Assembly: GCA_963931925.1 (NCBI GenBank)
Contig: OZ007576.1
Span: 16,771,577-16,835,576 of the forward strand
Source of the DNA: Onchidella celtica
Taxonomy: Eukaryota > Mollusca > Gastropoda > Systellommatophora > Onchidiidae
Length of the DNA stretch: 64,000 bases
Direction: 5' to 3'
The notes under the pieces are model-generated. The model ran no database searches and had not been told where the DNA came from. It worked only from the letters and a program-made list of their open reading frames with translations. The position numbers were made by a program, and so were the translations under genes. Below, one piece after another: positions 3,573 to 63,780 of this stretch (within the stretch, counting starts at the first letter, position 1; each line of letters opens with the position of its first letter).

Positions 3573-3723
3573 AATAGTGAAAAGGGTGCGTGGTATCTAG
3601 GTTAGGCGCCCTACTCTGGCCAGATACCTCCGTCTTCAGCTTATTTTGCTAGAGCAGAGTTTGCTCATGCTCGGCGAGATGGCTCGGCCACATTTGTTTC
3701 ACACCCCTGGTGGTGTTACTAAA

Positions 3724-18100: not shown

Positions 18101-19030
18101 CAATAGCCTTGACAAATTCATGCTAAGGATCAGTGTCTCAAAAACTGTAGTTTTGACACAAGGCTTGAGAAACCCCAACCCAATCATGCTGAATGGCTCT
18201 CCTCTGGAGCAAGTGGGAAAATTCTGCTACCTAGGCTCAACCATCAGTGGTAGCACAGACATAACAACTGAAATAAATGCCAGAATAGGAAAGGCGGCCA
18301 CAGCTTTTGGCAAACTCTCAAAAAGGGTGTGGAACAATAGCAAGCTGACCATCAAAACAAAGGTACTCGTGTACCAAACTTGCGTCCTAAGCACCCTGCT
18401 GTATGGCTCAGAGACATGGACCACCTACTCCAAACATGAAAGATCCATCAACTCCTTCCACCTGCGCTGCCTACGCAAAATTCTCAAGATCAAGTGGCAA
18501 GACAGGATCTCAAATATCGAAGTTCTGAGCCGAGCCAACATTCCATCAACTCAGGCTCTCCTAGGCAAAAAAAGACTGCGGTGGCTTGGACATCTCCACC
18601 GTATGGAAAATGATCGCATCCCCAGACAAATTCTCTACGGGGAACTTGCTACTGGCAACCGACCCAGAGGTAGGCCACATCTGCGATTCAAAGACACTTG
18701 CAAGGTCACGATGAAAGCATTCAACATCGACCCCAATGAATGGGAGAACCTTGCAAATGATCGAAGCAGATGGAGACAAAAATTGCGCAGTGGCACGCTC
18801 GCAATAGACTTCAAGGCAAAAGAAACATACCTGACAAAACGACAGAGGCGGAATGAAAACACTCGCCAAAGTGAACCCAAAAGACTGACCTGCAATCACT
18901 GCCATCGCACTCTCGGGTCAAACATTGGTAGAATAAGCCACGAGAGAAGCTGTCAGTCAAAGTGAAAGTGAATATTCTAGCTGCTAAGACCGTCTGTAAA
19001 GACGCTAAAGGCCATATATATATATACACT
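15130..19030 (+). mobile_element. RTE-like LINE, near full length
   Basis: The element has a GC-richer 5' leader from about 15130 and one long ORF. Its short 3' end finishes in a (TA)n tract at 19013-19026, as RTE-type elements often end in a simple repeat. A frame in the leader (15218-15592) codes for a Ser/Pro/Arg-rich peptide and may be untranslated or a remnant ORF1. The 5' boundary is approximate; I did not find a clear target duplication. Confidence 0.8.
15846..18965 (+). CDS. RTE-like endonuclease/reverse transcriptase, intact, 1039 aa
   Basis: It nicks target DNA and reverse-transcribes the element. Endonuclease motifs are LQETR (36-40), GDFNARVG (144-151) and TDHALVV (about 240). 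Reverse transcriptase motifs are GSDNIPAEVL, NNYRGISLLS, CGFRSKRST, FVDLTKAFDT, GVKQGCVLAPTLF and FADD near residue 735. The C-terminal region has GNRPRGRPHLRFKD, common in RTE-type proteins, and ends with a CxxC...H...C zinc motif (C1016, C1019, H1032, C1036). The frame is open upstream to a TAG near 15760 and spells GTWNVRT directly before the first ATG. That is the canonical first motif of this endonuclease, so the true protein probably starts upstream without an ATG or by another mechanism. There is no stop or frameshift, so the copy is young. Confidence 0.92.
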   Translation: MRPGLQQQDLTDIDSIRKSQIIDRELQLLNIDIAALQETRLPDSGSVKEENYTFFWQGLSSEQPRIHGVGFAVKNSLINSIATPIGVSERIMTLRLNTRSGFTNIICVYAPTLTSSDETKDIFYEALQRTLHNIPLTEGLLILGDFNARVGADHSAWPKCIGHFGIGNINENGQRLLELCSVNSLCVTNTYFDLKRCQRTSWRHPRSGHWHQLDLILSRRKSLGCIKITRSLHSADCDTDHALVVSKIKISAKKIYRSKAPSIPKINVTAIRDESNRKSFEKLFAESMDNVSQCDSVDETWNTLSSKIHDCAIKSFGQHNVSNNDWVAQNSEILLPLIEQKKSAFNEYNKNCNQSTKTCLKNAKAKLQLEVRRCANKYWTDLCNSIQEANEKGDMKTAFSQMKVALGPIITKSAPLKSVNGEPITDKNEQLNRWVEHYSLLYSTEKNIPPDFEEHLQKLPIMAELDAEPSLVELSNAIDHLSAGKATGSDNIPAEVLKDLKGPLLPHLYNLLLQCWKEGVISHDMRDAKIVTLYKNKGDKGDCNNYRGISLLSITGKAFARVILCRLQQLAEKVLPETQCGFRSKRSTIDMIFALRQIQEKCKEQNRPLITCFVDLTKAFDTVSRSGLYAVLKSIGCPPTLLKLIASFHTDMRACVNFEGCTSNSFAVNSGVKQGCVLAPTLFGIYFAALLKNAFGQCSGGVLINTRVDGSIFNVARLKAKSRTEHIMLQELLFADDAAIVAHDETTLQALINSLDKFMLRISVSKTVVLTQGLRNPNPIMLNGSPLEQVGKFCYLGSTISGSTDITTEINARIGKAATAFGKLSKRVWNNSKLTIKTKVLVYQTCVLSTLLYGSETWTTYSKHERSINSFHLRCLRKILKIKWQDRISNIEVLSRANIPSTQALLGKKRLRWLGHLHRMENDRIPRQILYGELATGNRPRGRPHLRFKDTCKVTMKAFNIDPNEWENLANDRSRWRQKLRSGTLAIDFKAKETYLTKRQRRNENTRQSEPKRLTCNHCHRTLGSNIGRISHERSCQSK

Positions 19031-22807: not shown

Positions 22808-23896
22808 TCACTGAGATTTGCGTCCTTTGAATAGAGATTTGTACGTGTCTTTAAACTTTTTATTCGTCGCCACGTAGACAACGAAATTGCAGGAACTATT
22901 CACACACATAACAGTTTCCATGACTAGATGCAAGACCTCAGACAGATTAGACGGTGCGTCCCGTGTAAACGGTGAATAAAAATAATCGGGTAAATATACT
23001 GTCAGCAACAATATGCCACATGTCACAGTGTAAATAGCACACACAGCCAGTAACATTTTAGTCGTGCGGTTTGAAGAAACTTTATTCTCTTTTGAACTCT
23101 TGGACGCAATTTCACGCCTCTTGCTGGCAGCCATTTTGATCTTTGCGCTGATACAAATACAGCCAATCAGCGTGAAGGAGCATGGGATCTTCAGGTTCAA
23201 GTAGACTATGGCGTGCAGAATTATTTCCACAGATTTGATAGTGTCGTAGAAAAGTTTCGAACGTTTGATAAGCCCCACTGAAATGTTGTATTTGTAGTTG
23301 AACTCGTAGTCAAATCTGAACCAGAAGGACATGTAGATAATTAAAGCAAACCAAAATGTGCCAATGAGAGCCACAGCAAACCAAATTCTTCTGGGTGTAA
23401 TTATTTGATGAAATTGCATAGGCAAATATACAGCTACTAGACGTTCGAATGTGATCAGCATTGGTATAGTGACGGAAACAGCTCCCAATGCGTAATTCAT
23501 AGCACGTTGTATGAACAACAGGATAAAAAATATCAAAGATATACTTTTAGAGAACTGAAACGTGTCTTGTATTCCAACAACCAGGTAGAGCATTATCGGG
23601 ACATTGTTGATCCCAATCAAAAACCCAATGTCTGAGATAGCCAGGCAACACAAGATTATATTGGAACATTTATGAAGTCCGTGTTTGACTAGTATGATAA
23701 TACTGATAATGTTTCCAGTTATGCCGAGAACAGATATTGATGGCATGATCCCGAACATGAATAACCGCAGCAGAGTGAGCTTTAACTCAATGGAGATGTC
23801 TGAGTAATTTGCTGCATTCTCGGAGGAGAAATCATTAACATGAATTCCGCTTGACAGGACAGATGGCAGAGTTGTAAAACTGGTGTTCTTAAGCAT
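22808..23896 (-). CDS. Class A GPCR, gastropod chemosensory receptor-like, 362 aa
   Basis: A seven-transmembrane, G protein-coupled receptor for the plasma membrane; the ligand is unknown. TM1 carries GITGNIIS, TM2 has LAISDIGFL, and TM3 ends in ERLVAVYLP in place of DRY. Paired basic residues (SKRREIASKSSKEN) sit in intracellular loop 3. TM7 has NSSCNFVVYVATNKKF in place of NPxxY, then a short tail ending GRKSQ. The extracellular N-terminus has N-glycosylation sites (NTS, NYS). The chosen start is the Met at 23896 because the paralogue at 37969 has a Met in the same place (KNTxFTTLP). The frame is open to 23995, and the DNA similarity extends there too, so an earlier start is possible. There are no introns. 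Sequence style resembles receptors called chemosensory in sea slugs; a peptide receptor is an alternative. Confidence 0.85.
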   Translation of the reverse strand: MLKNTSFTTLPSVLSSGIHVNDFSSENAANYSDISIELKLTLLRLFMFGIMPSISVLGITGNIISIIILVKHGLHKCSNIILCCLAISDIGFLIGINNVPIMLYLVVGIQDTFQFSKSISLIFFILLFIQRAMNYALGAVSVTIPMLITFERLVAVYLPMQFHQIITPRRIWFAVALIGTFWFALIIYMSFWFRFDYEFNYKYNISVGLIKRSKLFYDTIKSVEIILHAIVYLNLKIPCSFTLIGCICISAKIKMAASKRREIASKSSKENKVSSNRTTKMLLAVCAIYTVTCGILLLTVYLPDYFYSPFTRDAPSNLSEVLHLVMETVMCVNSSCNFVVYVATNKKFKDTYKSLFKGRKSQ

Positions 23897-23996
23897 AGCG
23901 GAATGCCACATTTTTCTAAAGCAAAATTTTCTCAACTTGATGCGATCGTATGAACAAGAAAGCCCAGTCTTTATCTTTAAGACAGCGGTGAACATT

Positions 23997-26590
23997 TTAA
24001 CGACATTACTTAAAAATTTTTAATATCGTATCATTTTTTTCTGCATTCCCTGAGAAGTCTGTAGGGATTCTGTGACAATATGCTAAAGAGTTACAATTCA
24101 TGCTCCACAACCAAATTTTATTCAATCCCAAATAACCGGTTACAGGCAAATTGTAGGGGAAACTGATGCACATTACAGAGTTTATCACATATAGAACGGA
24201 AATAAAATATTCTGTGACTTGGTTGGATCAATTAGAAAGGATTTGACATGAAAATGTAATGAAAGACCTTCCCTTTGCCACCTCGAGTAGGATATATTTT
24301 TTTAAAGTGACATTCAAAGTGTCCACAGTTGTTCATTTTCTATCAGAAAGGTAAAGATTACTTGCTGATTCATCCTCAAATGTGAAATTATTATAAAATT
24401 AAAGTTTTGCTTATCAGTTATGTTGAAATAATCGAATCCCACTTGACAGAAACGCTTTGACCTATAATTAATACACGCTGATGATCGCAGTGTTTATGAC
24501 ATTCAATAATGTTCGTGTATCTGGCAAGGCAAGTGAAGTCTGAGTATGTCATTACATTCCGGTAATCTTATCATACTTCTTAAATTGTTTCACGTTGCTT
24601 GACATTTTCAGACACCGTCATTTCATGTCGAAACTGAAAATAGTTTCTCTTTCATCTACGAAATTTTGCATTAAAGATAATGTTTTAGGTTACATATATA
24701 ATTGTTCCTGTTGAAGTCTTTTATTGTTCGTTTTTTTTTTTCACTTGACAAAGGCGAAAGCCGAAAATTTGTGTATTTTCTGTCTTCTCTTTAGTTTGCT
24801 TTGTATTGTTTGGGTTTTATTTCTCACGCGGGGCTTTGCAACATACAACCTTTTCTTTTTGCCCAATTTTGACTTTGCTTATAGCCCTGCTGCGACCCCA
24901 CAGTTTTTCTGTGGTTTTTATGATATTTCGTGAATATATAATTATATGCATCGTTCTGAGACAACACCCCCATATTCACCCCTTTTGACATAATTATGTG
25001 AATTTTTGTTATAAACTGACAATAACATGTTTAAACTACAAAGAAATTTTACCCGTTCTAAAACAAAGCAAGACACATCCAAAACCCATCTTTTTCTTCT
25101 TTAAGCCTCTTGATTCCTTGAGGAGCATAGGGCCGCAACAACACTCCTCCAATGCACGGCAGGTCCACCCTAGCTCGGTCCACGCCATTCCGTCTGTCTT
25201 CACCTCAGCATCGATACTCAAGAACTGCAAACTGTATGTTGTAAGCTGTTCAAGTAAAATATTATTCTGTCGCGACAAGGAGCTGAATAATATAATTATA
25301 TAAATCTGTTAGTGTAAAGACAAGACTTTTTTTTTTTTTTTTTTAACTATAAAGATGGCGTCTACACATTTTTTTTGGTCAGAACTGCCAGCCGCTCAGT
25401 GATGAAGTTACACTAATCATCAACACCCCCTCGGAATGTTCGATCTTCGATTAGATAGAAGAGTATCTACACACTTGTTCAAGTGACTCTTCCATCACTG
25501 TCAAATGACTCTGACTGTGCTGAATGTGATTTTGAATTATCTTTGTGAAAAGAAAGCAAAACAGCCTTTGGTCACGTTTCGATCCAACATTGTCTGGTCA
25601 CACCACGACCTACAGGGTAGGAAATGGCCCAGGGTATGAATTCTTAATATTGCCTGTTTCATTTTGTAATTTTTTTTTTTTCAGGCCCTGGGGATTCCGT
25701 ACACCGGTAACAACTAAAATCGAAAGCTTTAAAGCGGCACTATTTCACTTTTATCGGTGACGAGCCTTAACTGTCATTAAACATTCTAACATTTCTTCGA
25801 TACTTTTATTTCAAATGAAACTTTTTGTACAATGTACCAATACTATATCACACTAATCTGTCTCAATCTCCAAGGCCGGTCAAGACAGTTATACATAGAC
25901 CTCCAACCTGCCATTTTGTCATATTGCGTACTTCAAATATTGTGATGAGAAGTTCAAAAGATTTATAGATTGAAAGGAAAGTTAATTTTTGGGCTGTTTC
26001 CAAAGTCTCTAAAGCAGAAAAAAATATAATTATTAAAACGATAAACATGTTAAGTCATATAAATATTATGTACGATTTAATGTCAGCCTTTCCTACTTTG
26101 TGAAATCTGAATGGAAATTGATGTCTTAACTTTTCTAAATGTTGTGGATTAACTTCTGCAGTAAAGTTAATTCTGCGTCCATGTTGCATTATACGTTGGC
26201 AAGGATGATTTAGATGTCACACAGATCAGTTCTTCTCAGAACTTCAAAGGAAACCCAATCACTGTGTGAAGCCGCTTGATTATTCTTAAATTTTGGTTGG
26301 TCGATCTACTCGCTGGAAGTCACTAAACATTAGCTTTTGTCAGCGTGACTAATGCATGATACTATAATAATAATAAATCTGATTTGTTTAAGACAGAATT
26401 GCCAAATGATCGGTATATAAACAGAGAAATGAAGAAACAGCATTTTTGTATCTTTTGTGTCTGCCAGAGTTTAATAAACCAGAGCCATTTGTATTCACCA
26501 AACCGCAATGTGCTACACAGAACAGTTTGAAGACAGAACAAATGGAAGTTTATAATTTGAATGAAAGAACGAGATATAAAATAATTAGTT
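23997..26590. other. Intergenic, no gene seen
   Basis: AT-rich spacer with T-runs near 24731 and 25327. Short open frames at 24998-25303 and 25545-25760 have no domain signature. Confidence 0.6.
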
Positions 26591-36454: not shown

Positions 36455-37765
36455 CCTACCATGGCCTTCAATTACAATGTGAGGAAAAACGTGAGAACAT
36501 CACGTTGTGGGGGAAAGTTGGTAAAGATAGAGGGGGAGGTGAAGGATATGGTTCTGTATCATTGCAACCTCACTTCTAATTTGTTCTATCTCCATTTTCT
36601 GAAAAAGTAGAAACCTCTTAGAATGTAGAAGAGGTTGTTTGAAATGCGTTATGGCACTTACCAAGCCGTTTCACAGTTCCGATTTATTCTAACTCCTTAT
36701 CATGATACTAAAGCCGCTAGTGTTCAACGTCGAATTTCTCTGCTGTGCAATAATAGGTGGAATTAGAACAAACAAAAACTAAGGATGCGCCGTGCCCAAG
36801 TGACAAAAATCTGAAATTGAGGCGTTGAGCAAAAAACAAACTGTTCTTTGTGGACGATTTGACTTTGAAAACTTCAGCTTGGTTTAATTTGCATTACTCC
36901 GAAAGTATTGTCTTGTTTTTTTTTCTTCTGTTTTACAATTAATTTTGGAATCCAGCTGGACTGGGTATGGTACAGTACTGACCCCTTCAATTTCTCCAAC
37001 TTTCGCGAAGTGTCTCTCGTAAGGGTTTCAAACTGCAGGATAATTACATAATTTTTTATATTAATCTGCCAAGAGTGGAGGGGGAGCTATTTTAAGTCAT
37101 AACGATGCACGTTTGAACAAAATTATAACATTTAGGAATGTGAACCTTTAACTGGGAACAGGAGAGTATCTTCAATTCTAAGTGGAATAATTTTGGTTCC
37201 CATAACGTAAGATTTCGTAAAGCAAGTTATAGATTTTATGATAAGTATTCTGGAAACTAATGACAACCTCAAAATTCGCTCGTCTAACCAGAATCATACT
37301 AGTATAATTGATTGTCCACAGTTGTAGCGATAATTAGAGGGAATAATTAATAATAGTACAAGTTTGTATCTTTTTTCATGTGAAATTAGAATCTGAAAAG
37401 CTCGCATAGAAACTTTAATTAATTTTCTGTCTAACCAGAGAGAAACATCGAGAAGTATGTAAAATTAACACCTGTAATAGTTAATCAGCAGTTATGGAAA
37501 AATTCAATGTTTTCAGAAATATCCAACTAGAGGTGACAAAACACCCCAGTCTTTCATTACGTTTGCCAGTCTGTTTCGTTATTGACCCGACAGTGACTCA
37601 CAGAATACGTCACAGCTAGGCCATCGAGTGCATTACCAATGGCGTCCATTCTCTGTAATTTGTTTGTAATATTTTACGGTTGTAGTCAGTTTTAAATAAA
37701 ATGTGCTTGCGGAGCATGGCATTCATTTCGCTCTCCTTTTGCGTTACAGACTTGCCACATAATAT
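36455..37765. other. Intergenic, upstream of a GPCR gene
   Basis: AT-rich, no recognisable exon. It would hold the promoter of the receptor gene that follows; no clear core element was seen. Confidence 0.5.
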
Positions 37766-37968
37766 GTATGAAACTGAACAAAAAAGGAAATATTTTAAAA
37801 ATTTATAAAGAATTAATGTTAAAATGTTGGCCATCATCTTCGTGTACTCAAGACAAAGAATGTATCGAGCATGGTGAATTAAATACTATTATTAGAACTC
37901 CAAAAGGCTGTACCGATTACCGTATCCAGCTGAACTATCTATGCTTTAGACAAATCTTGCATTTCACA

Positions 37969-39069
37969 ATGCATAAGAACACCTGTTTTACAACTCTGCC
38001 AGCCAACGTGCCCAGCAGTGCCCGAGTTGGCAACTTTTCACCCGAGAATGCCACAAGTGTTATGAAAGACTCTGACAACCAAATCATCTCCTTTGAGTTA
38101 AAGCTCACTCTTCTGCAGTTATTCACGTTCGGGGTCATTCCATCAATATCTCTTCTCGGCATAACTGGAAACGTTATTAGTATTATCATACTGGTCAAAC
38201 ACGGACTTCACAAATGTTCCAATATAATCTTATGTTGCCTGGCTATCTCAGACATCGGGTTTTTGATTGGGGTCAATAATGTCCCCCAGTATTTGTACCG
38301 AATGATCGGCATACAAAACACATTTCAATTTTCTAGGGGTGTATCCTACGCGCTGTACCTCCTGTATTCTCTACAAAACACCTTGGATTACGCAATGAGC
38401 TTCGTTTCGCTCAGTATACCAATGCTGATCACATTTGAACGTCTAGTAGCTGTATATTTGCCTATGCAATTTCATCAAATAATTACGCCCAGAAGGATTT
38501 GGTTTGCAGTGGCTATCATTTGTATATTTTGGTATGCCTTAGTTATTTACATGTGCTTTTGGTATAGGTTTGACTACGAGTTCAGCTACAAATACAATAT
38601 TTCAGTGGGGCTTATCAAACGTTCAGAACTTTACTACGATACCATCAAATCTGTAGACATCATTCTAAACGCCTTAGTCTACTTGAACCTGAAGATCCCA
38701 TGCTCCTTCACGCTGATTGGCTGTATTTGTATCAGTGCAAAGATCAAAATGGCTGCCAGCAAGAGGCGTAAAATGGCGTCACAGAGTGCCAAAGAGATTT
38801 CTGCGAACCGTACGACCAAAATGTTACTGGCTGTCTGTGCTGTTTACACTGTGACATGTGGCATAATGTTGTTGCCAGCATACTTGCCCGGATATTTTTA
38901 TTATTCCATCACACATGATGCACCGCCGTCTTATCTGGCCGAGATCATGAATCAAATCATGATAACAGTTATCTGCGTGAACAGTTCTTGCAATTTTATT
39001 GTCTACGTGGCGATGAATAAAAAGTTCAAAGAAACGTACAAATCGTTGTTCAAATGGGTGCCCACTTAA
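37969..39069 (+). CDS. Class A GPCR, gastropod chemosensory receptor-like, 366 aa
   Basis: Close paralogue of the minus-strand receptor at 22808-23896, sharing long identical runs such as GLHKCSNIILCCLAISDIGF. TM1 has GITGNVIS; TM3 ends ERLVAVYLP; extracellular loop 2 has YKYNISVGLIKRSEL; intracellular loop 3 is shorter (SAKEISANRTTK). TM7 has NSSCNFIVYVAMNKKF. Glycosylation sites are NAT near the N-terminus and NIS in loop 2. The Met at 37969 is chosen by alignment to the paralogue; the frame is open to ATG 37768, giving 433 aa if used. The last residues (FKWVPT) and stop are the first copy of a minisatellite that follows, unlike the paralogue's FKGRKSQ, so the tail has been rewritten. There are no introns. 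Confidence 0.85.
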   Translation: MHKNTCFTTLPANVPSSARVGNFSPENATSVMKDSDNQIISFELKLTLLQLFTFGVIPSISLLGITGNVISIIILVKHGLHKCSNIILCCLAISDIGFLIGVNNVPQYLYRMIGIQNTFQFSRGVSYALYLLYSLQNTLDYAMSFVSLSIPMLITFERLVAVYLPMQFHQIITPRRIWFAVAIICIFWYALVIYMCFWYRFDYEFSYKYNISVGLIKRSELYYDTIKSVDIILNALVYLNLKIPCSFTLIGCICISAKIKMAASKRRKMASQSAKEISANRTTKMLLAVCAVYTVTCGIMLLPAYLPGYFYYSITHDAPPSYLAEIMNQIMITVICVNSSCNFIVYVAMNKKFKETYKSLFKWVPT

Positions 39070-52499: not shown

Positions 52500-52505
52500 T
52501 TTATT
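52500..52505 (-). terminator. Candidate polyadenylation signal of the giant gene
   Basis: AATAAA on the minus strand, about 370 bases after the stop codon. Plausible position; not proven. Confidence 0.4.
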
Positions 52506-52872: not shown

Positions 52873-55800
52873 TCACCACTGTCTGTTCCAGGGAGACGAC
52901 CATGGGAACCAGCGTTGTCTAGACTGGGAACTGTAAGGAGATGAGCCCTGCCATGAGAATGGGTAGTAACGCCCCTGCATCATTCCGCTACCGTTGTAAG
53001 GACCGCCCATACGGCTTCCGTACGAACCCCAGCGCTTTGTCTTCGGTGTCTGGTCTTCAGTGGCGTCTCTTTTCTGTCGCTCCTGGTCTCCGCTCACTGA
53101 GTCTGTGGATTCTCTAGGAAATCTTGCGTTTCGGTCCCAGTTACTGAACCTTGGGTTCCATCTATTAAAACTTCCAGAGTTGAACGGATTATAACCCCCG
53201 AAACTATTCCATTGGTTGTTAAAACCAAATGGAGAATAGCCTGGAAAGTTCCAGCGTTTATCTCTGCTGACATCGCTCGTGTCCCGCTTTTGTCTGGTGC
53301 TTTCTTTATCCACAGTGGTTCTCACACTTTCTCTGGGCATGCGCATAAACGAGTTCCACTGCCAGTTAGAACCCCTTGGATATCCCCAACGATTACTGCC
53401 GCTGTTCCAGTTAGATCTCTGGTCGACCGGGCCCCACATGTGTGTATTGTGTTGTCCCATATTGTTAAAGAACTGACCACTTCTGGGATACCAACTCCAC
53501 TGGTTCATTCGTTTTGTCCTGCTGCTCTCATCAGTGTTACGTTTGTATCTGTAGAAATTTCCTCCTCCCATTGAGGCCCGATTGTTTGGAAATCCCATTC
53601 TATTCCAGTTTGGTCGTCTAAAACTGTTAGACATCGCAGACCAAGAATTTGGTGACCACGAGTTCCTCCAGCCTTGAGAATTTGATGTCATTCCTCCCCA
53701 TCTGCTATTCCAACCCGATCCACTCATCATGTTATAATCTGGTCTGCCAGATTGCCACCAACGTTTACTTCTCGTGGTTTCGTCGTTGTGTGTGTCACGT
53801 TTGCCACGGTGCGGCATCTGGCTTCGTCCACCACCCCAGAAGTTATTTCTGTACCAAGGGAACCAAGAGTTTGATCCCCACCGATTAAACGAGCCCCTTC
53901 TCCAGTCAAAGGATGGAGACATCATCGTACTATAGTAGTCCATCCCCCACCAACGTTTGTTTCTTGTAGCATCTTCCACATCACGCTTGGATCTGGTCTC
54001 AGTCGTGTCACGCCGTTGGAAAGGCATCCAGCCGCTTCTGCCTGTCCAGGGATATGCACCATACCCGGGATACCAAGAGTTAGATCCCCAGTGATCCCTG
54101 AATCCACCTCTCCAACCATTTCCCGAGTCATATTGCGGCGTCAGCATCCCACCAGAACCACCAAATTGCCACCACCGTTTGTCTCTGGTTTGGCTGTCAA
54201 CATCTCGTTTCGCTCTGTCGCTAACTGCTTCATCGGCTTTTTGTTCATCCACATCTGAGCTTCTCTTGTAAGACGACTGAGAATAAGTCCTAAATCCAGA
54301 ATTCCATGGATAGAAACCCCAAGGAGAACCAGTGAAACTATCTGTATTCATATTCCACCACTGACTAGGCCTCCAGGGATAATCTCCACCCCAGCCTTGC
54401 ATCTGATTGTTGTCATACATTTGCCCATAGCCATACCATCGTTTACTTCGCTCTGTGTCATCAACTTCCCGTTTTGTTCTTCCGCTTGTGTCATCTCGTG
54501 GCCTCCTCATCCAATTATTAAAGTTGTTCCCTTCCCACCAGTTGTTTCCCGACCCCATGGAACTGCGTAGCCAAGGAAAGTTCTGGTTTCCAAATCCGGG
54601 TCTGTTGTACCCAGAAAAACGCCAGTCGAAAAATGGAGAGAACTGGTTTCTGTTCCAGTTATTGCCATAGCCATTACCAAAGCCTTCAGAGAAATCATGC
54701 CCTCCCATCCAGCGCTTCTGTCGTTCTTGGTCTGAATCAGCCTCACGTTTCTCCCTGGCAAGAGTATCATCTTTGCCATCGCTCATTTCTTCCACACGCC
54801 GAGTATTTCTAGGGTAATTCCAATAGTAGCCAGTGTACCAGGGCATTCTACTCTGGGAGAACAAATACCACCAGTACCAGAGACCAAAAGAGGGCGCCAT
54901 CCATCTGTCACGGTGAAAGTACATCATTGGATTCTGACCCCATCGATATTCATAATTCATCGGGAAGTAACTCTGCTGGGGCCAGTAGTTTGGATAACCC
55001 CACTCTCCAAATCTTTTATCTCTTGAAACAGTTTCTGTCTCGCGTTTAAGGCGCTCGTGATCGCCGGTGTCTTGGCTGTCACTGGTCTCTCTGTAAAATC
55101 GGTTCTGAAATGCGCCAGACTGGCCAAACCACGGGTACCAAAACCTCGTCGATGACAAACCGGACGGACCGAACCAGCCCTGGTTCATGTCGCCATTGTT
55201 GTCCCAGTAGTTTTGATTCATCATGTCAAAACTGTCCCATCTTTTGTCCTTTGCTGTGTTGTCCACTTCCCGTTTGTTACGTTGTTGTTGTTGTTGGTGT
55301 GTGTTTCTGAAGTATCGAGATGGGAATTGTCTGCTCATGCTGGTCCAGTAGTTATATCCCCCGGTGTAAGGATAACCAAACCCCATATTTGAGACTGTTG
55401 AATACATTGAGTTATCACCATACATATTGCTGTCCTGCCAGTTGGGATATCCGTTGTTGATCCAGTCCTGGTCCCAGTCAAACCACCACCTCTTCTGTCT
55501 CTCTCCAGGAGGCGACTGCGTATCACGTTTGGTCCGCTCCTGGTCATACTCAGAGTTTCGTGTGTACCTCATTGAATTCCAGTCATAGCCCCACCAAGGA
55601 TTCATTCTAGACCAAGAATTCCAGTTCATATAAGGATTTCTCCATCCGTCATTCCAGCTGTTGCCACGCATCTGTGAGTAAAAATTATTATACCATCTCT
55701 TTGCTCTCGAGTTGTCCTCGGTATCTCTTTTCGATCTCTCGTTAGATTCGGAGGTTTCCGATCCAGATCTGTCTGTGGCTCTGAAGAATCTGCTGCTGGA

Positions 55801-58800
55801 ATAGCTGGGCCAGTGATGTGACATGCTGGAGGACGAAGACATGGGAAACCACGAGCTTCCAAAGACAAAATCATTTGGCCAGTTGTACCACGGATTCATC
55901 CAGGTATTTCCTTCCCTGAATTGCCAGCGTTTGGCTCTACCCCCTGTAGCGTCAGTGTCGCGCTTTGTGTTGCTCTGAGCTTCACTGTCCTCCTTCTCTT
56001 CTGCATGTCTCGGGATTCGCCATGTCATTTCCGCTGGATTCCAGTTCCACATGTCATTGCTTCCCCTGCGCCAGTTCCAGTTTGAACTTTGACCTGGAAA
56101 CCACGACCTGCCCCCTGACATAAACTGTCTGCCTCTGTTTTCATTCCAAGGGTTCATCGAATTTTGAGAGTTCCAGAACCCTTGTTGACGATCTCCTGCC
56201 CATGGCGTCTTATTGAGACTCTGCCAGCGTTCAGATTTGGGTGAATCGCTGACATCTCGTTTCCTCCTCTCACTATGATCGTCTTGATCTGTCTCTCGTT
56301 GGAATCTGTAGGAACTGGACATTTCAGGATTGGTCCCAAAATTCCAATGTGATCTTGGATAATTTGTCCATTCGTTTTGCCAATTGAAATTTGAATGAAA
56401 TGGGTTATAAAATCTTCCTTGTGTTGTCATGGACTCAGGATACCAACTGTTCCTTTGCCATCGTTTAACTCTGTCTTCAGTGTCAGCGTCTCTTTTAGTT
56501 CTGTCGGTGGCATCAGTCTGACTGGCATCTCTGTAATATCTAGAGAAATAGTTGCTACGGTCATTTGTCCAGCCCTGTGGTCCTTGCCAGCCCCGGTTCC
56601 CAAAAGGTGTCCAGTTCATTCTCTGATACGATGTGTCAAAATATGGCCAACCCTCCATTGCCGAATAAGACCAAGGAGAATTTTGCCATCGCTTGACTTT
56701 TTCACTGGGTTCTGCTTCTCGTTCAGTTCTTGAAGCCACGTCCTTGTCTTCAGTCTCTCTCGGATAACGCATTGAATTCCACATATTATTTTGCCACTGA
56801 TTTCTAAATGGCATGTACGAATTCATACGATTGCTGTATCTGTTGGACCAAAAGTTTCCATCCCAGTTCTGACCCCACTGATAATTCCATTGCTGTGGCC
56901 CGTTACCTCCGTAGTTAGACATGGACCATGGCATTTGACCACTTCCTTGCCATCGTTTCTCCCTGTTCTCTCCAGCAGTGTCACGCTTACTTCTTGGCTC
57001 CTTTTGTTCTGATTCTCTGGGATATCTCATGGAATTCCACATACCCATACCGGTGTTCCACCATGGCTCATTGTACCGGTTTGTATAGCTGCTGAAATCG
57101 TAAGGGTTCATTTGTCTACTTTGATACCAGGGAAATTGTCTGTCATATCCCCACCAACGTTTCTCTCTATTCTCTCCACTCGTGTCACGCTTATCTCTTG
57201 ATTCTATTTGTTCAGATTTCCTTGGAAATCTCATAGAATTCCACATACCCATACCGTTGTTCCACCACTGTCCGTTGTACATGTTTGTATGGCTGCTGAA
57301 ATCGTAAGGAGACATTTGCCTACTTTGATACCAGGGATACTGTCTGCCATATCCAGACCGACGTTTCTCTCTATTCTCTTCAATAGTGTCACGCTTATTT
57401 CTTGGCTCTTTCTGTATTTGTTCAGATTCTCTGGGATATCTCATGGAATTCCACATATCACCATTCCAGTCTGGTCCGTTGTACCAGTTTCTGTAACTGC
57501 TGAACTCGTAAGGGTTCCACTGTGTTCTCTGGTGCCAGGGAAATTGCCTGTTATTCCCCCACCAACGTTTCTCTCTCTTCTCTCCACTGGTGTCACGCGT
57601 ATCTCTTGACTCTTTCTCCATTTGTTCCGACTCTCTGGGAAATCTCATGGAATTCCACATACCTTGACCGCGATTCCACCACGGTTCATTGTACATATTT
57701 GCATAGCTGTTGAAGTCTCTGTTTGGGTTCCATTGCCCACTTTGATACCGGGGAAATTGTCTGTCATATCCCCACCAACGTTTCTCTCTATTCTCTCCGC
57801 TGGTGTCACGCTTGTTTCTTAACTCTGTTTGTTCAGATTTCCATGGAAATCTCATAGAATTCCACATGTCACCATTCCACTGTGGTCCATTGTACCAGTT
57901 TCTGTAATTGTAGAAGTCGTAAGGATTCCTTTGTGTACTTTGATACCAGGGAAATTGTCTGTCGTATCCCCACCAACGTTTCTCTCTATTCTCTCCACTG
58001 GTGTCACGCTTATCTCTTGACTCTTTCTCCATTTGTTCAGATTCTCTGGGAAATCTCATGGAATTCCACATACCTTGACCACGATTCCACCACGGCCCAT
58101 TGTACCAATTTGTATAGCTGTTGAAGTCACTGTAAGGGTTCCCTTGTCCACTTTGATACCAAGGAAATTGCCCGCCGTTTCCCCACCACCGCTTCTCTCT
58201 GTTTTCTGTATCACGTTTGTTTCTTGAATCCATTTGTTCTGTTTCTCTGGGATATCTCATGGAGTTCGACATACTACCACCCCACCGTGGTCCATTGTAC
58301 CAATTTGTATAGCTGTTGAAGTCATAGGGGCTCCATTGTGTACCGTGGTGCCAGGGAAATTGTCTACCGTTTCCCCACCACCGTTTCTCTCTACTCTGAT
58401 CCTCCACCTCGCGTTTCGTTCGGCCATGTCCGTCATCCTGAGATTCTCGTGAATATCGACTAAAAGGGTACCGGCTGTTGCTCCACTGACCTCCCATGGA
58501 CGACCAATCGCCATTCCAGGGGAACATCGAGCTGTGTGACCCCCATTGACGTCCAGGCCAGTTTCTCCACCACTGTGGCCAGTTTCCACCTTCCCATCCC
58601 CATCGCTTCACCCTTTCATCAGATCCAACATCGCTTCTGTTTCTGGACTCTGTTTCCGTTTCGTCAGTTTCTCTTCCGTACCGCCCGGAATTCCACATGA
58701 AACGATTGCCGAAGCCGGGGCCATTTCTCCACGGAAAGTTCCAAGAGCTGAATGGTCCTGTTTGCCAGTTGAAGAACGAAGGATTCCATCTGTACTGTTG

Positions 58801-61800
58801 ATCCCATCGTTTGTTCCTCTCACCGTTCTCTGAGTTCCGCCTTTCTCTGGTTTGCGTGTTTGCTTCACTTTCTCTAGGATATCTCATCATGTCCCAGGAA
58901 TTTCCGTATTGTGACCACCAAGGGTTCCAGAAATTTCTCATAGATGACGGGTTTCCATGTCCCCTGTACCAGTCTTGACTGAAACCAGGTGGGAAATAAT
59001 CCCACATAGACATCCGTTTGCCCCGGATCTCTGTCTGCGTCTTGCTCGTCACGTCTTCAGTGTCACGCTTTTGTCGGTTTTCACCTTCCTCGTCTGTGAG
59101 ACTTGTTTCCCTCGAGTTTCTCCCGAAACCCCACATATTTCCGAACATATTCTGCCTGTCGGACCGGCCCTGAGGATTCCAAGAGTAAGGAAATTGTCGT
59201 TGATGATAAGATGGATAACGTCCCCAGTTGCCACCCATAGTTTGATGACTTTGTTGCCAGGATGGATAAAAGCTGCCAAATCCTTGGAACCTTTTCGCTC
59301 GGCTAGACTCGTCTACGTCACGTTTAGTTCTGTCGCTGTTCTTTTGTTCCGCAGAGTCTCTGGGAAATCTGTCCATGTTCCAGTTGTGGTTGTTCATCCA
59401 TGGATTCATCCTATTAAAACTGCCCATGCTGGACCAGTCATTCCATGGATACATGTTATACTGACCATATCTATTGTTCCATTGGTTTCCAAACATTCCC
59501 ATGAAATCATTCCAGCCACTCCATCGTTTCTCCCGCTTAGAATCTTCAGAGACCTCCCGTTTGGCCTTGCTTGATCCATCAATCTGGTTATCACCATCAT
59601 CAGCTGTCCTAGCATTTCTCATCAAACTCCAGTAATTATCAGGCCCAAACCACATAGGGAAATACATTCTAGGCCAGAAACGCCACTGGTGCCACGGTTG
59701 ATAGAATCCGCTACCCCAGTTTCTGCCCCAGCCATTTCCGTACCACCCTGGGTAGAACCACTGAGATCCGAACTCTCTTTTCTCTCTGTGTTCACCGGTG
59801 TCACGTTTATTTCTTTCCTCCTGATCTTTTTCCATCTCGGATACGTCACGAGAAAATCGCCAAGGATTCCTCATGTTACTCTGCCTTTGATGGTCCCACC
59901 AGTTTCCTTGAGGATTCGCAAACCACGGCATTTGTCCCTCCCAGTTTCCAAAGCGGGGATTTGAATTAAAGTTTTTCCAAAATGTGAAACGTTTGTTTCG
60001 ATTCAGGTCGTCCAGCTGGTCTTTTCCTTCAATTTCACGACGGAATCTTTGATAAGGACCGTTGAAATTGTTGTCCCAGAAATGAGAGGGAAATTGTCCA
60101 CGGTGGCTACCTGACCACCAGGGCTGCATGAACCTCCACCCGGAATTGTCTCCCCAGTTATTTCCAGGAAACATATTCCAGTCATACTTCATCCCACGTT
60201 TCTCTCTTGACTCGTCACCAGCATCTCGTTTCTGTCTCGTATTGTCTTCGCCGGTACTTCTGTAGTTTCTCATCCAGTTTTGTGAATATCCATTGTTCCA
60301 GGAATTCATATAATTTGGATAATTTGAGTACCAATTGAATCCACGGGAAGATTCTGGGTATCGACTTCCATACCATTTGTCTTGATTCATCCAGTTGTAG
60401 TTGGACATCCATGGACTGGCATTCCAGAAACGTTTACTTCTCTCTGAGCCCTCAACTGCAGTATTTCTCTCTTGACGTGTCCTCGTCCCACTGATTGAAT
60501 CTGCTCCATTTCCCGCTGCTCGTGGCGTTCTCATGTAGCTCGGCATTCTGTTCCACCCGTAGTTGTTCTGGAAGGGAAAGTTATTCATATTTCTCGACCA
60601 TGCAGGACTATTGCTGTATTGAGGAGGCCACCAGCTGTTCCCAAAACTGTTGAACGGATTTGAATATTCATAATTCCAGCCACTTTGTCGCTCATGGCGA
60701 GTGGCATCACCAGTGTCTCTCTTCTCCCTGAGTAAGTCTTGATCGTCAGCCTGACCTGATCTCCTCTGATTTCTCATGAACCCCCACTGGGAATTCCCAC
60801 CCCATGGATCTCCCATTGGATCAGACATCATTCGATGGTAGTTATTGTCCTGGCCGTGGTTGTAGTTTTTCCTGTACCAGTTCCGACATCTGACCGCTCT
60901 GCTGTTCTTATCACTAGAACTTGTCTGAGAACTGGAGGATTCATCAACAGAGGACTCTGACTGCCCGGCTGCGGCTCTTGTCGACCTGAGCATGTTCCAA
61001 CCTCTCCAGGGTGACCAGGCTGGTGTGGGCGTTGTCCACTCTACACAGTCATGGTCATCTCCGTACAAGTTCCACCAGTCATTCCAGCGTCTGTCACGAT
61101 TGTCCAGTGACGTAGCGCTACTGTCGGCAGTGCCATCTCCCGCATCAGCTTCTCTCTTCATCCGAAACTGCTGATTGTTGGGCATACCGTAACCATGCAC
61201 GGAGTTCCAGATTGTGGGACAAACCACATCCCAGAATGTTGGCGACATCCAGTTTCCTCTGAACGACTGTTGTTGCTGATGTTGGCCGCTCCAGTCATCC
61301 CATCTCTTGTCTTTGTCCATGTCTACACCAGTGTCGCGTTTCTCTCGCTCTCCACTTTCTCTGGGATATCTGAACTGATTCCAGTACATCTGACACCAGG
61401 GATAGGCAGACCAGGTCATCCAGTGCCACATTTGCTGATCTGGGGAGTACGCACTATTCATAGGACTGAACTCTCCCCACCACCTTTTCTCTCGTTGAGC
61501 ACCGTCTGCGTCTCTTTTAAGTCTCTCTTCAGCCCTGCTTTCCTCCTCACCAGCGTTCGAGTCTCCATTGACCTGTCTAACAAACCGACTATACCAGGCT
61601 TTCCACATGTTGCCCAATCGTCCAAGCTTGCCGCCAGTGTCACGCAGAGAGAACATAGATCTAGGGCTGCCTCCAAATGTCTCTCTCCATTGGTTCATCC
61701 AACCGGGAAAGCCCATCTGTGGTTCCATCACACCCACAGGTCTCATGTGTCCTCTATCAAACCCAAACATATTTTTGCTAGACCAGCCAGGCCCAGGTGA

Positions 61801-63780
61801 CATCACAGAAGAGAAAAACGTTCTGGGCACCAGAGGATCACGGGGTGGTTGCTGTTGGAAATTCTGATACCCATAGGTGAACGGCTGTTTAACGTGTCCT
61901 CCACGCCACATGAAACTTGGTTGACCAGACTGAGGATATTTCCATTCCGCACCTGGGCTGTCCATGTAGTTTCTCGGCCAAGCAGGTTGAGTGAGGAAAG
62001 AAGAAGTTGGTACATTTCCACCCGACCATCGATCAGACGTAAATCCATGCATATCATTCCTCCCCTGGTTCCAGCGTGAGGATCCTGAGTTTAGTTGTTG
62101 CTTCCAGTTGTCCTCAGATTCAAATTTGCGTGCGGCACTTCTCCAAACGCTGTCTTGTTCATCATCTGAAGATGATTGGCCATCTTTAGAGTAATCACGT
62201 TTAAAAGGTTCACTTTCATCACTGCGTTGTTCGCGTATGGCATCGGTTCCAGAAGGATCAAGCTCCGTATCATCTGTACTTCTTTTTCTCCTGTAACTCT
62301 GGAATCGATTATACCACATGTTGTTTTGCCGCTCGGGGTATCTGTTAATCATTGAATTCATCCATGGATTTGAACCACCGGAGCCTCCATTATACCAGTT
62401 TCTGAAGTTTGTTGAGCCAGTTCTCCACGGCATCTGCCAGTACGCACTTCTATCCGCCATAGTAAAACGTTTCTCGCGACTGCCATTTGTTGTTTCTCCA
62501 TCATTTTCATCCATTTCAGTTGTTTCTTTCGTCCATCTCATCATGTCGTTCCAGATTTCTTCAAAGTCTATAGGATCTGTAGCATTTCCATCCGTGCTGT
62601 TGTTATCTTCTTGCCAACTACTCATCAGCATGGATTCCCACATAGCATTGTCCAACATCCAGGCCATCCACATGTCCCACGGCGTCATACCAAATCCTGG
62701 AGGGGGAGGCATCATGGCGTCCCACGAGTCGTCATCTGTATTGTTTCCCTTGTCTGCAGTCTCATTGAGTTTAGAACTTTCATCTTTCTTATCCTGTTTC
62801 GTCTCTCGTCTCTGTCTCGTGGTCTCGTCACTCCCTAGATCTACTTCCATTTCAGCGGCCAATCTTTCAGAAGCTTCATCTTCTGGTTGTCTCTTTCTCC
62901 TGCCCACCATTCCCCAGTTGGGGATTCCTCCAAACATCCACGGATCAAATCCGAATACGATAGGATAACCTAACACCGGCATCTGAGCGGGCATCCATGT
63001 GGGTCCTTGGCGCACAACATTTGGGTTGGGGGTCGGCTGTGTGCCAGAATCAGCGGAAGATTGACTCTTTCCATTGCCGAACACTCTCGTTCTTTGCGTG
63101 CCCATGTTATTTAAACCGTTTTGTTTGGCAAAGTTTGCAACATTGTTTGGCCTGTCCTGTGACATAGTTCTACCCTCTCCTAGCTGCTGTTGTCTGAATA
63201 CATTGTTCAAAGGGCGAATCGGAGTTGGTGTGGATCCTCTGGCAGTCTCAGAAAATGGTCTGAACAAACGGTGGTAGTTACTGAAGTATGGATTGTTGTT
63301 GGTGTCGACCGACCTGTCACTCTGAGCGTTTTCGGAGTTCTGGCTCTGGCTCTCCACGGATCTCCTGTAACGTGGAAAAGGTGCCCCGCCCATTGGACTC
63401 ATATCCATCCCTGGCCATTGTGGCTGGGGAAACATCGGGCCTGAACTGCCAAGTCGTTGATTGGGAATCCCACCAACTGGACCTGAAACCCCGCCCATCT
63501 GACCGGCGATAGGAGAAGGCGCTCCGCCAACACCTCTCAGCCCACCCTTCATCCCCCACCACATCCAGGCATCAGGCTCTCCCCAGGATTCTGTGTATTC
63601 ACCCTCATAACATTCATCTTTGCCCCGACACAGATTCTGACGTCCACTGGTGGGCCCCGTGCCATAGGAATCTTTAGGCAACCAAGGTCGCTGTTGTTGT
63701 TGTTGTTGTGGTAGGTTCTGAAGATACCATGACCATTCCTCCTGTAAACGTCTCTCCATAGCCTGGCGAAGTTCTCGATC
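52873..63780 (-). CDS. Giant Trp-rich, furin-site-punctuated polyprotein precursor (5' end off-window)
   Basis: I recognise no described family. The exon probably starts at 63780 after a good acceptor (TTTGTGTCATTTCAG); the frame stays open to the right edge but its upstream part is T-rich and has no convincing start. About 3635 residues follow in one exon. Residues encoded by 63780-61483 (about 766) are a divergent Met/Pro/Gln/Gly-rich region with a CRGKDEC pair and dibasic sites. From 61482 to the stop are 37 units of about 65-100 residues. A unit has a Trp/Asn/Gly/Tyr/Met-rich segment, usually starting W; an R-[YF]-x-R site; an acidic spacer; R-x-K-R; a short D/E-T/S spacer; and a second R-E-K-R-type site. 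One segment (48 residues, from about 58190) has seven Trp. Cys occurs only in units 1-3. The cleavage grammar implies secretion and release of about 37 peptides, each of about 45 residues; the signal peptide should be upstream. Function unknown. Confidence 0.85.
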   Translation of the reverse strand, partial: DRELRQAMERRLQEEWSWYLQNLPQQQQQQRPWLPKDSYGTGPTSGRQNLCRGKDECYEGEYTESWGEPDAWMWWGMKGGLRGVGGAPSPIAGQMGGVSGPVGGIPNQRLGSSGPMFPQPQWPGMDMSPMGGAPFPRYRRSVESQSQNSENAQSDRSVDTNNNPYFSNYHRLFRPFSETARGSTPTPIRPLNNVFRQQQLGEGRTMSQDRPNNVANFAKQNGLNNMGTQRTRVFGNGKSQSSADSGTQPTPNPNVVRQGPTWMPAQMPVLGYPIVFGFDPWMFGGIPNWGMVGRRKRQPEDEASERLAAEMEVDLGSDETTRQRRETKQDKKDESSKLNETADKGNNTDDDSWDAMMPPPPGFGMTPWDMWMAWMLDNAMWESMLMSSWQEDNNSTDGNATDPIDFEEIWNDMMRWTKETTEMDENDGETTNGSREKRFTMADRSAYWQMPWRTGSTNFRNWYNGGSGGSNPWMNSMINRYPERQNNMWYNRFQSYRRKRSTDDTELDPSGTDAIREQRSDESEPFKRDYSKDGQSSSDDEQDSVWRSAARKFESEDNWKQQLNSGSSRWNQGRNDMHGFTSDRWSGGNVPTSSFLTQPAWPRNYMDSPGAEWKYPQSGQPSFMWRGGHVKQPFTYGYQNFQQQPPRDPLVPRTFFSSVMSPGPGWSSKNMFGFDRGHMRPVGVMEPQMGFPGWMNQWRETFGGSPRSMFSLRDTGGKLGRLGNMWKAWYSRFVRQVNGDSNAGEEESRAEERLKRDADGAQREKRWWGEFSPMNSAYSPDQQMWHWMTWSAYPWCQMYWNQFRYPRESGEREKRDTGVDMDKDKRWDDWSGQHQQQQSFRGNWMSPTFWDVVCPTIWNSVHGYGMPNNQQFRMKREADAGDGTADSSATSLDNRDRRWNDWWNLYGDDHDCVEWTTPTPAWSPWRGWNMLRSTRAAAGQSESSVDESSSSQTSSSDKNSRAVRCRNWYRKNYNHGQDNNYHRMMSDPMGDPWGGNSQWGFMRNQRRSGQADDQDLLREKRDTGDATRHERQSGWNYEYSNPFNSFGNSWWPPQYSNSPAWSRNMNNFPFQNNYGWNRMPSYMRTPRAAGNGADSISGTRTRQERNTAVEGSERSKRFWNASPWMSNYNWMNQDKWYGSRYPESSRGFNWYSNYPNYMNSWNNGYSQNWMRNYRSTGEDNTRQKRDAGDESREKRGMKYDWNMFPGNNWGDNSGWRFMQPWWSGSHRGQFPSHFWDNNFNGPYQRFRREIEGKDQLDDLNRNKRFTFWKNFNSNPRFGNWEGQMPWFANPQGNWWDHQRQSNMRNPWRFSRDVSEMEKDQEERNKRDTGEHREKREFGSQWFYPGWYGNGWGRNWGSGFYQPWHQWRFWPRMYFPMWFGPDNYWSLMRNARTADDGDNQIDGSSKAKREVSEDSKREKRWSGWNDFMGMFGNQWNNRYGQYNMYPWNDWSSMGSFNRMNPWMNNHNWNMDRFPRDSAEQKNSDRTKRDVDESSRAKRFQGFGSFYPSWQQSHQTMGGNWGRYPSYHQRQFPYSWNPQGRSDRQNMFGNMWGFGRNSRETSLTDEEGENRQKRDTEDVTSKTQTEIRGKRMSMWDYFPPGFSQDWYRGHGNPSSMRNFWNPWWSQYGNSWDMMRYPRESEANTQTRERRNSENGERNKRWDQQYRWNPSFFNWQTGPFSSWNFPWRNGPGFGNRFMWNSGRYGRETDETETESRNRSDVGSDERVKRWGWEGGNWPQWWRNWPGRQWGSHSSMFPWNGDWSSMGGQWSNSRYPFSRYSRESQDDGHGRTKREVEDQSREKRWWGNGRQFPWHHGTQWSPYDFNSYTNWYNGPRWGGSMSNSMRYPRETEQMDSRNKRDTENREKRWWGNGGQFPWYQSGQGNPYSDFNSYTNWYNGPWWNRGQGMWNSMRFPRESEQMEKESRDKRDTSGENREKRWWGYDRQFPWYQSTQRNPYDFYNYRNWYNGPQWNGDMWNSMRFPWKSEQTELRNKRDTSGENREKRWWGYDRQFPRYQSGQWNPNRDFNSYANMYNEPWWNRGQGMWNSMRFPRESEQMEKESRDTRDTSGEKREKRWWGNNRQFPWHQRTQWNPYEFSSYRNWYNGPDWNGDMWNSMRYPRESEQIQKEPRNKRDTIEENREKRRSGYGRQYPWYQSRQMSPYDFSSHTNMYNGQWWNNGMGMWNSMRFPRKSEQIESRDKRDTSGENREKRWWGYDRQFPWYQSRQMNPYDFSSYTNRYNEPWWNTGMGMWNSMRYPRESEQKEPRSKRDTAGENREKRWQGSGQMPWSMSNYGGNGPQQWNYQWGQNWDGNFWSNRYSNRMNSYMPFRNQWQNNMWNSMRYPRETEDKDVASRTEREAEPSEKVKRWQNSPWSYSAMEGWPYFDTSYQRMNWTPFGNRGWQGPQGWTNDRSNYFSRYYRDASQTDATDRTKRDADTEDRVKRWQRNSWYPESMTTQGRFYNPFHSNFNWQNEWTNYPRSHWNFGTNPEMSSSYRFQRETDQDDHSERRKRDVSDSPKSERWQSLNKTPWAGDRQQGFWNSQNSMNPWNENRGRQFMSGGRSWFPGQSSNWNWRRGSNDMWNWNPAEMTWRIPRHAEEKEDSEAQSNTKRDTDATGGRAKRWQFREGNTWMNPWYNWPNDFVFGSSWFPMSSSSSMSHHWPSYSSSRFFRATDRSGSETSESNERSKRDTEDNSRAKRWYNNFYSQMRGNSWNDGWRNPYMNWNSWSRMNPWWGYDWNSMRYTRNSEYDQERTKRDTQSPPGERQKRWWFDWDQDWINNGYPNWQDSNMYGDNSMYSTVSNMGFGYPYTGGYNYWTSMSRQFPSRYFRNTHQQQQQRNKREVDNTAKDKRWDSFDMMNQNYWDNNGDMNQGWFGPSGLSSTRFWYPWFGQSGAFQNRFYRETSDSQDTGDHERLKRETETVSRDKRFGEWGYPNYWPQQSYFPMNYEYRWGQNPMMYFHRDRWMAPSFGLWYWWYLFSQSRMPWYTGYYWNYPRNTRRVEEMSDGKDDTLAREKREADSDQERQKRWMGGHDFSEGFGNGYGNNWNRNQFSPFFDWRFSGYNRPGFGNQNFPWLRSSMGSGNNWWEGNNFNNWMRRPRDDTSGRTKREVDDTERSKRWYGYGQMYDNNQMQGWGGDYPWRPSQWWNMNTDSFTGSPWGFYPWNSGFRTYSQSSYKRSSDVDEQKADEAVSDRAKRDVDSQTRDKRWWQFGGSGGMLTPQYDSGNGWRGGFRDHWGSNSWYPGYGAYPWTGRSGWMPFQRRDTTETRSKRDVEDATRNKRWWGMDYYSTMMSPSFDWRRGSFNRWGSNSWFPWYRNNFWGGGRSQMPHRGKRDTHNDETTRSKRWWQSGRPDYNMMSGSGWNSRWGGMTSNSQGWRNSWSPNSWSAMSNSFRRPNWNRMGFPNNRASMGGGNFYRYKRNTDESSRTKRMNQWSWYPRSGQFFNNMGQHNTHMWGPVDQRSNWNSGSNRWGYPRGSNWQWNSFMRMPRESVRTTVDKESTRQKRDTSDVSRDKRWNFPGYSPFGFNNQWNSFGGYNPFNSGSFNRWNPRFSNWDRNARFPRESTDSVSGDQERQKRDATEDQTPKTKRWGSYGSRMGGPYNGSGMMQGRYYPFSWQGSSPYSSQSRQRWFPWSSPWNRQW
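56953..58380 (-). repeat. Recently expanded block of seven polyprotein units (units 14-20)
   Basis: Seven units in 1428 bases average 68 codons and are far more alike than the rest: WWGYDRQFPWYQS starts, NWYNGP middle, MWNSMRFPR ends, SEQMEKESRDKR and DTSGENREKR spacers. The DNA is also closely similar, so this is local tandem duplication. Unit 16 has RFPW instead of RFPR, and unit 19 begins R instead of W. Confidence 0.9.
61483..63780 (-). other. Non-repeat N-terminal region of the giant precursor
   Basis: About 766 residues. Glutamine run at 63700-63717; GMDMSPMGG, GRRKRQPEDE and a WDMWMAWML segment; acidic stretches between dibasic sites, for example after RRKRSTDD. It shares Trp/Met richness and furin-like sites with the repeats but not their periodicity, so it may hold older diverged units. 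Confidence 0.6.

Follow-up and report, generated by a model that had tools for sequence, protein, structure and literature searches.

The multi-copy neuropeptide precursors of molluscs carry many units between basic cleavage sites. A different design is that of profilaggrin. As far as the consulted parts of two accounts go, profilaggrin has a calcium-binding S100 head joined to tandem repeats in one large exon, with linkers that are cut by proteases; furin and PACE4 cut between head and repeats in vitro, condensation fails at four or fewer repeats, and repeat copy number differs among species in S100-fused proteins of this type (PMC9140947, PMC12468283). Phase-separating prion-like domains offer a third point of comparison, their aromatic stickers being evenly spaced according to the part of the source consulted (PMC10187436). 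Here we describe a gene on the minus strand of a stretch of 64,000 nucleotides (the window) from the gastropod Onchidella celtica (contig OZ007576.1, positions 16,771,577 to 16,835,576). The gene ends in a giant coding exon with dozens of tryptophan-rich segments, separated by linkers with candidate convertase sites, and EF-hand domains are encoded at its start. We read it as an EF-hand-fused secretory polyprotein that would give rise to a self-associating material, a reading to which we assign a probability of roughly one half.

The giant 3' exon

The minus-strand frame was open from 63999 to 52873, a run of 3,708 codons that reaches the window edge. The giant exon (52873..63780, minus strand), which comprises conserved cores, the Trp-rich array and the stop codon (52875-52873), was delimited from the open frame, its translation and the splice acceptor TTTCAG|GAT, which sets the start at 63780. 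Downstream of this start the frame runs through 3,635 codons to the stop without interruption. Base composition alone gives such a run a chance of ~10^-92, and each of the remaining five frames over the exon contained 69-265 stops. A first-pass annotation, made from the letters of the 3' part alone, had proposed one exon of more than 10.9 kb starting at this position, as the acceptor and the open frame confirm. A candidate polyadenylation signal, AATAAA (52500..52505, minus strand), was found in the sequence about 370 bases past the stop.

Tryptophan, a costly residue and rare as a rule, is used 283 times in this one exon (7.8% of 3,635 residues), just as extreme a share as the first-pass annotation had stated. 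Its remark that cysteine is almost absent also stands (6 of 3,635 residues, 0.17%) with one correction: the cysteines are not scattered, as all six lie within the first 965 residues and are invariant in two sea slugs.

The giant exon is functional coding sequence, because omega among the seven youngest units of the array (units 15-21, 56953..58380, minus strand; six of the seven start with WWG) was 0.18 in the Trp-rich segments. It was 0.16 in the linkers, and these units are under purifying selection. Repeats may keep a frame open for a time, and one might therefore think of a functionless repeat expansion, open by chance or through recent amplification. The chance value of ~10^-92, the omega of 0.18 and the five further members of the family, of which two align collinearly with the window, speak against this explanation, which we regard as virtually untenable and as refuted as far as sequence can refute it.

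In a Pfam scan of the exon no family scored above its cut-off. The sole match, Pro-MCH, reached 23 bits against a cut-off of 24 with no single stretch passing, and DUF7160, which also appeared among precomputed domain matches, reached 32 bits against 27 in the Plakobranchus protein described below, yet again with no single stretch passing. Both were set aside; they look like accumulated weak matches across repeated linkers. Apart from EF-hands, no Pfam family had a passing stretch in the window exon or in the Plakobranchus, Lymnaea and Biomphalaria proteins. A PDB sequence search with the exon gave no match at E up to 1. The earlier statement that no characterised family is recognisable has thus survived actual database searches. 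When the C-terminal 1,708 residues encoded by the exon and an EF-hand piece of the Plakobranchus protein were used as queries against the own genome, no second copy was among the matches listed.

Gastropod relatives and conserved cores

A first protein search returned proteins of Elysia marginata (P0004, ElyMa_002807400; 2,969 residues) and Plakobranchus ocellatus (P0005, PoB_002765600; 3,545 residues), both hypothetical and labelled EF-hand domain-containing in UniRef, together with a third protein, P0006. With the N-terminal portion of the P. ocellatus protein as query, a second search found just this protein and that of E. marginata. Partial proteins of Lymnaea stagnalis (P0007) and Biomphalaria glabrata (P0008) came from a third search, for which the cores of the window and the sea-slug proteins without their repeats served as queries. 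All five relatives are unnamed. Because each search was confined to proteins whose length was 0.55 to 1.75 times that of the query, further relatives may have escaped.

Core 1 (62467..63780, minus strand) continues the EF-hand part (RELRQAMERRLQEEW), carries the conserved motifs AWMWWGMK and GFDPW and is collinear with the Elysia and Plakobranchus proteins. It holds Cys 51 and 57 (63630 and 63612). Trp-rich segment 1 (62281..62466, minus strand) comes next and aligns with the sea-slug segment standing just before the array there. Core 2 (60718..62280, minus strand) consists of a SVWRSA block, Trp-rich segments 2-4 and the motif AWSPWRGWNML. Segments 2-4 (60976-61482), which stand between cleavage sites, have one conserved cysteine each (61395, 61221 and 61047), and the fourth cysteine of core 2 lies at 60888, ahead of segment 5. 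If cut out, each of these three segments would carry a single Cys through which it could cross-link. A possible likeness of the SVWRSA block to a cathepsin propeptide was set aside because no Pfam match bore it out. In an alignment of the window with the E. marginata and P. ocellatus proteins the cores were collinear, all six cysteines were invariant and one WSPW was conserved in core 2. Judged by the collinear cores, the six cysteines and the units with convertase sites, the window gene belongs to an unnamed gastropod family of EF-hand/Trp-rich proteins.

The main array does not stand at the same place in all members: it lies between core 1 and core 2 in the sea slugs, whereas it follows core 2 in the window. 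It has therefore probably expanded twice. The Biomphalaria protein showed few Trp-rich units, located at the C-terminus as in the window, with longer, undivided linkers (both judged by eye in a partial model), and the Lymnaea model ends before the array. Over four of the nine EF-hand exons of the gene itself Lymnaea was closer, with 142 of 189 identical residues against 115 of 189 for Biomphalaria. The sea-slug relatives and P0006 are built on the unit plan of the window. Their segments mostly end in WKR instead of RYPR or RFPR and are shorter on average than those of the window. Between E. marginata and P0006 most segments correspond one-to-one (27/32; 60.2% identity). The P. ocellatus array (residues about 1000-2700) consists over much of its length, by eye, of near-identical YGMMGNY...NQMWKR units, and 24 of its 38 segments have their nearest neighbour inside the same protein; the Elysia and window arrays are more divergent. 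This suggests that one lineage has recently undergone amplification or gene conversion.

Upstream exons and the EF-hand region

Alignment of the Lymnaea protein to the flanking genome identified nine upstream exons in order on the same (minus) strand, at about 80920-80801, 80663-80502, 79562-79524, 78593-78540, 77897-77787, 75576-75415, 72164-72120, 71411-71334 and 70468-70343 for exons 1 to 9 of those found. These coordinates continue the window numbering (contig position = 16771576 + coordinate). Seven exons matched with E values no higher than 4.4e-4; the remaining two, both short, had E values of 0.86 and 4.3. All nine had AG/GT borders, as seen by eye. They represent part of the EF-hand region, and the gene's first exon would lie further upstream. 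The giant exon closes the coding part of a gene with many exons and with EF-hand domains at its start. The plan of a giant multi-unit precursor put forward in the first-pass annotation, which saw only the 3' part, can be kept, but not the picture of an isolated repeat protein, given the EF-hand exons upstream and the five relatives.

The upstream exons of the gene encode four canonical 12-residue EF-hand loops, one of them spanning an intron. In the relatives, to which the Pfam scan for this domain was applied, EF-hand_7 matched at 2e-12 (Lymnaea) and 9.6e-10 (Biomphalaria). Taken together, the gene's own loops and the matches in its relatives indicate that the product belongs to the EF-hand superfamily and may bind calcium. 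Against the PDB the Lymnaea protein matched by sequence one weak calcium-indicator chain (E 0.0086). AlphaFold applied to the Lymnaea EF-hand protein with four sequences gave a mean pLDDT (predicted local distance difference test) of 33.8, with helices merely in an EF-hand-like order.

Segments, linkers and cleavage sites

In the giant exon 38 Trp-rich segments were delimited (mean 53 residues, range 37-74), with borders that were set by a script and in several cases adjusted by hand. The earlier count was about 37 units; the multi-unit array as such was seen correctly. Every segment has at least four tryptophans, and 27 of the 38 begin with one. An R-x-K/R-R site precedes 32 of the 38 segments, and an R-x-x-R or dibasic site closes 33. 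R-x-K/R-R occurs 67 times in the exon; across 500 composition shuffles the count averaged 5.6 and never exceeded 12. The units are indeed bounded by convertase-type sites, as had been proposed. Of 39 such places compared between E. marginata and P0006, 38 retain the site, and the positions of the tryptophans are kept as well. Sites in excess of chance and conserved in this way are what would be expected of a secreted proprotein cut by furin or related proprotein convertases.

At a typical junction the Trp-rich segment is followed by RYPR or RFPR, an acidic linker A ending in R-x-K-R, an acidic linker B and the next segment. Linker B has the form D-T-x-x-x-x-R-x-K-R. With a pattern that allowed 8-14 residues, exactly 10 residues were found in 19 of 22 matched linkers in the window, 17 of 17 in E. 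marginata, 24 of 26 in P. ocellatus and 15 of 17 in P0006; the pattern had zero matches in the Biomphalaria protein. The C-terminal array proper, as obtained by segmentation, comprises segments 5-38 and their linkers, most of which end in R-x-K/R-R (52876..60717, minus strand). It closes with segment 38 (52876..53031, minus strand), which has no linker after it, and the E. marginata and P. ocellatus proteins likewise finish with a Trp-rich segment. The older segments share a common composition, not a common sequence. Conservation of linker sequence among the old units was considered and rejected, the signal being the cleavage sites alone.

Convertase sites between so many segments, most with little mutual similarity, might also be expected of a precursor of diverse bioactive peptides for signalling, defence or deterrence, each released to a separate target. 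The finding that most segments of E. marginata and P0006 pair off one-to-one would suit such a precursor as well. Several observations point the other way. An amidation Gly before the basic site, as expected in a neuropeptide precursor, was present at none of the 22 pattern-matched sites in the window and at 1 of 17 in P0006. The mean charge of the trimmed segments was +0.70 (single values -4 to +5 in 40 script-defined segments), which is not that of cationic antimicrobial peptides. Charge and missing amidation signals therefore argue against the commonest forms of bioactive peptides, and the defensive and signalling roles offered by the first-pass annotation are weakened in their cationic antimicrobial and amidated versions. 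The segments are also long for such peptides, change in the seven young units is purifying rather than diversifying, and the Plakobranchus array is partly homogenised. We consider a bioactive-peptide precursor unlikely.

Composition and a possible mechanism

The segments are rich in Trp, Asn, Ser and Gly. Aromatic residues, most commonly Trp, make up 26.7%, aliphatic ones (I, L, V, A) 1.9% and Arg about 9%. Composition was nearly equal in E. marginata, P. ocellatus and P0006, and the Biomphalaria pieces were less strongly biased (W 6.7%). The segments are close to neutral on average; the linkers had a mean charge of -2.78. WxxW, the C-mannosylation motif, was not enriched in the exon (23 observed, 22.4 expected). 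Aromatic residues were more evenly spaced than in 1000 of 1000 shuffles in the window, E. marginata and P0006, where for the latter two the test was limited to segments with at least 18% aromatics; in stricter subsets of the window the observed spacing was reached by 2, 3 and 21 of 1000 shuffles. AlphaFold on one Trp-rich unit (eight sequences only) gave a mean pLDDT of 51.7 and an empty DSSP assignment, which says little.

EF-hands and acidic linkers together could also bind calcium in a precursor of shell or biomineral matrix, with the Trp-rich peptides as organic frame. Elysia and Plakobranchus, however, possess a large array and have no adult shell, and for the giant exon neither a Pfam match above the family's cut-off nor a related PDB entry turned up. 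We hold a role in biomineralisation to be improbable.

The reading as a self-associating material rests on the cleavage sites, the composition and the aromatic spacing, and may be envisaged as follows. The polyprotein would enter the secretory pathway, where calcium binding by the EF-hands and the many aromatic 'stickers' could cause condensation in granules. Proteases of the furin/PC type would then cut the linkers, often twice per linker, shedding acidic pieces of about 10 and about 13 residues. The freed Trp-rich peptides, without their acidic neighbours, could associate by Trp/Tyr/Arg contacts, and the Cys-bearing pieces of the cores might cross-link the material. The product could be a gel, mucus, egg-jelly or adhesive. 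Copy number would set the valency and hence the stickiness. Secretion of the precursor is supposed in this reading, and cleavage and release of its peptides are inferred from the sites.

More tentatively, and in our estimation less probably, the gene might encode a calcium-sensing, EF-hand-fused polyprotein that is kept as a condensate in the secretory pathway and cut into dozens of Trp 'sticker' peptides for an extracellular gel or glue, with an array invented twice in the same gene, in sea slugs and in pulmonates. It would then be a secreted molluscan counterpart of profilaggrin based on tryptophan, and an undescribed class of animal material.

Comparison with known systems

Profilaggrin is the nearest working precedent. 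Both have a calcium-binding head (putatively so here), a giant exon with tandem low-complexity repeats, linkers, and a copy number that differs among species. The window gene differs in several ways: its EF-hands are several and spread over many exons, its segments are rich in Trp, Asn, Ser and Gly, most junctions carry R-x-K/R-R, and its family has two alternative array sites. The Lymnaea and Biomphalaria relatives, whose N-termini are incomplete, gave no S100 family at an E threshold of 0.1. The likeness is therefore one of design and not of membership, and no sequence relation was found.

The same design, an EF-hand head with a single giant repeat exon and linkers as in the S100-fused proteins outlined in the consulted part of PMC12468283, would also suit a cytosolic structural protein like profilaggrin or trichohyalin that hardens an epithelial or gland cell, its basic sites being cut at cell death or never. 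Consistent with this, the upstream DNA read contained no convincing candidate for a signal peptide, only low-complexity or unsupported ones, and the N-termini of the relatives are partial. On the other hand, R-x-K/R-R at about 12 times expectation, kept at nearly all places compared, fits luminal convertases, and six invariant cysteines fit an oxidising compartment; neither is proof. A cytosolic protein likewise seems to us unlikely.

Like the prion-like low-complexity domains of the FUS and hnRNPA1 type, in the portion of PMC10187436 consulted, the segments have aromatics evenly spaced among polar spacers; unlike them, the window protein is Trp-led, probably cut into pieces and probably extracellular. 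From the multi-copy neuropeptide precursors it is set apart by long and divergent units, by the lack of amidation Gly at the 22 matched sites and by its EF-hand head. Convertase-cut polyproteins and EF-hand-fused repeat proteins are known kinds; new to us are a chemistry built on Trp, the way these features are combined and the probable twofold expansion of the array. Among the records listed in the literature searches (titles and starts of abstracts, with few subscription papers) there was no description of such a Trp-rich EF-hand-fused protein, and the parts consulted of PMC10475054 and PMC9589101 name EF-hand proteins and nothing Trp-rich.

If the secreted-material reading is true, a Trp-rich and probably protease-released set of self-assembling peptides would be a new chemistry among natural secreted materials. 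The same gene, with anything from few units in the partial Biomphalaria model (by eye) to more than 30 in the window and with two alternative array sites, would let the valency rule be tested in nature. The anatomy described here is supplied for database proteins listed as hypothetical, and makes the prediction directly testable by peptidomics of snail and slug secretions.

Other frames in the window

The window contains two frames of the long interspersed nuclear element (LINE) type. One (3-3596, minus strand) encodes endonuclease, reverse transcriptase and RNase H in 1,198 uninterrupted codons and runs off the window edge; the other (15762-18965, plus strand) encodes endonuclease and reverse transcriptase in 1,067 uninterrupted codons. 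Because they are uninterrupted, both are possibly young elements. Rhodopsin-type G protein-coupled receptor domains were found in open frames at 22811-24019 (minus strand, 403 codons) and 37696-39066 (plus strand, 457 codons), the latter with its best score for Srw. A frame at 10709-11572 (minus strand) showed the membrane region of a neurotransmitter-gated ion channel.
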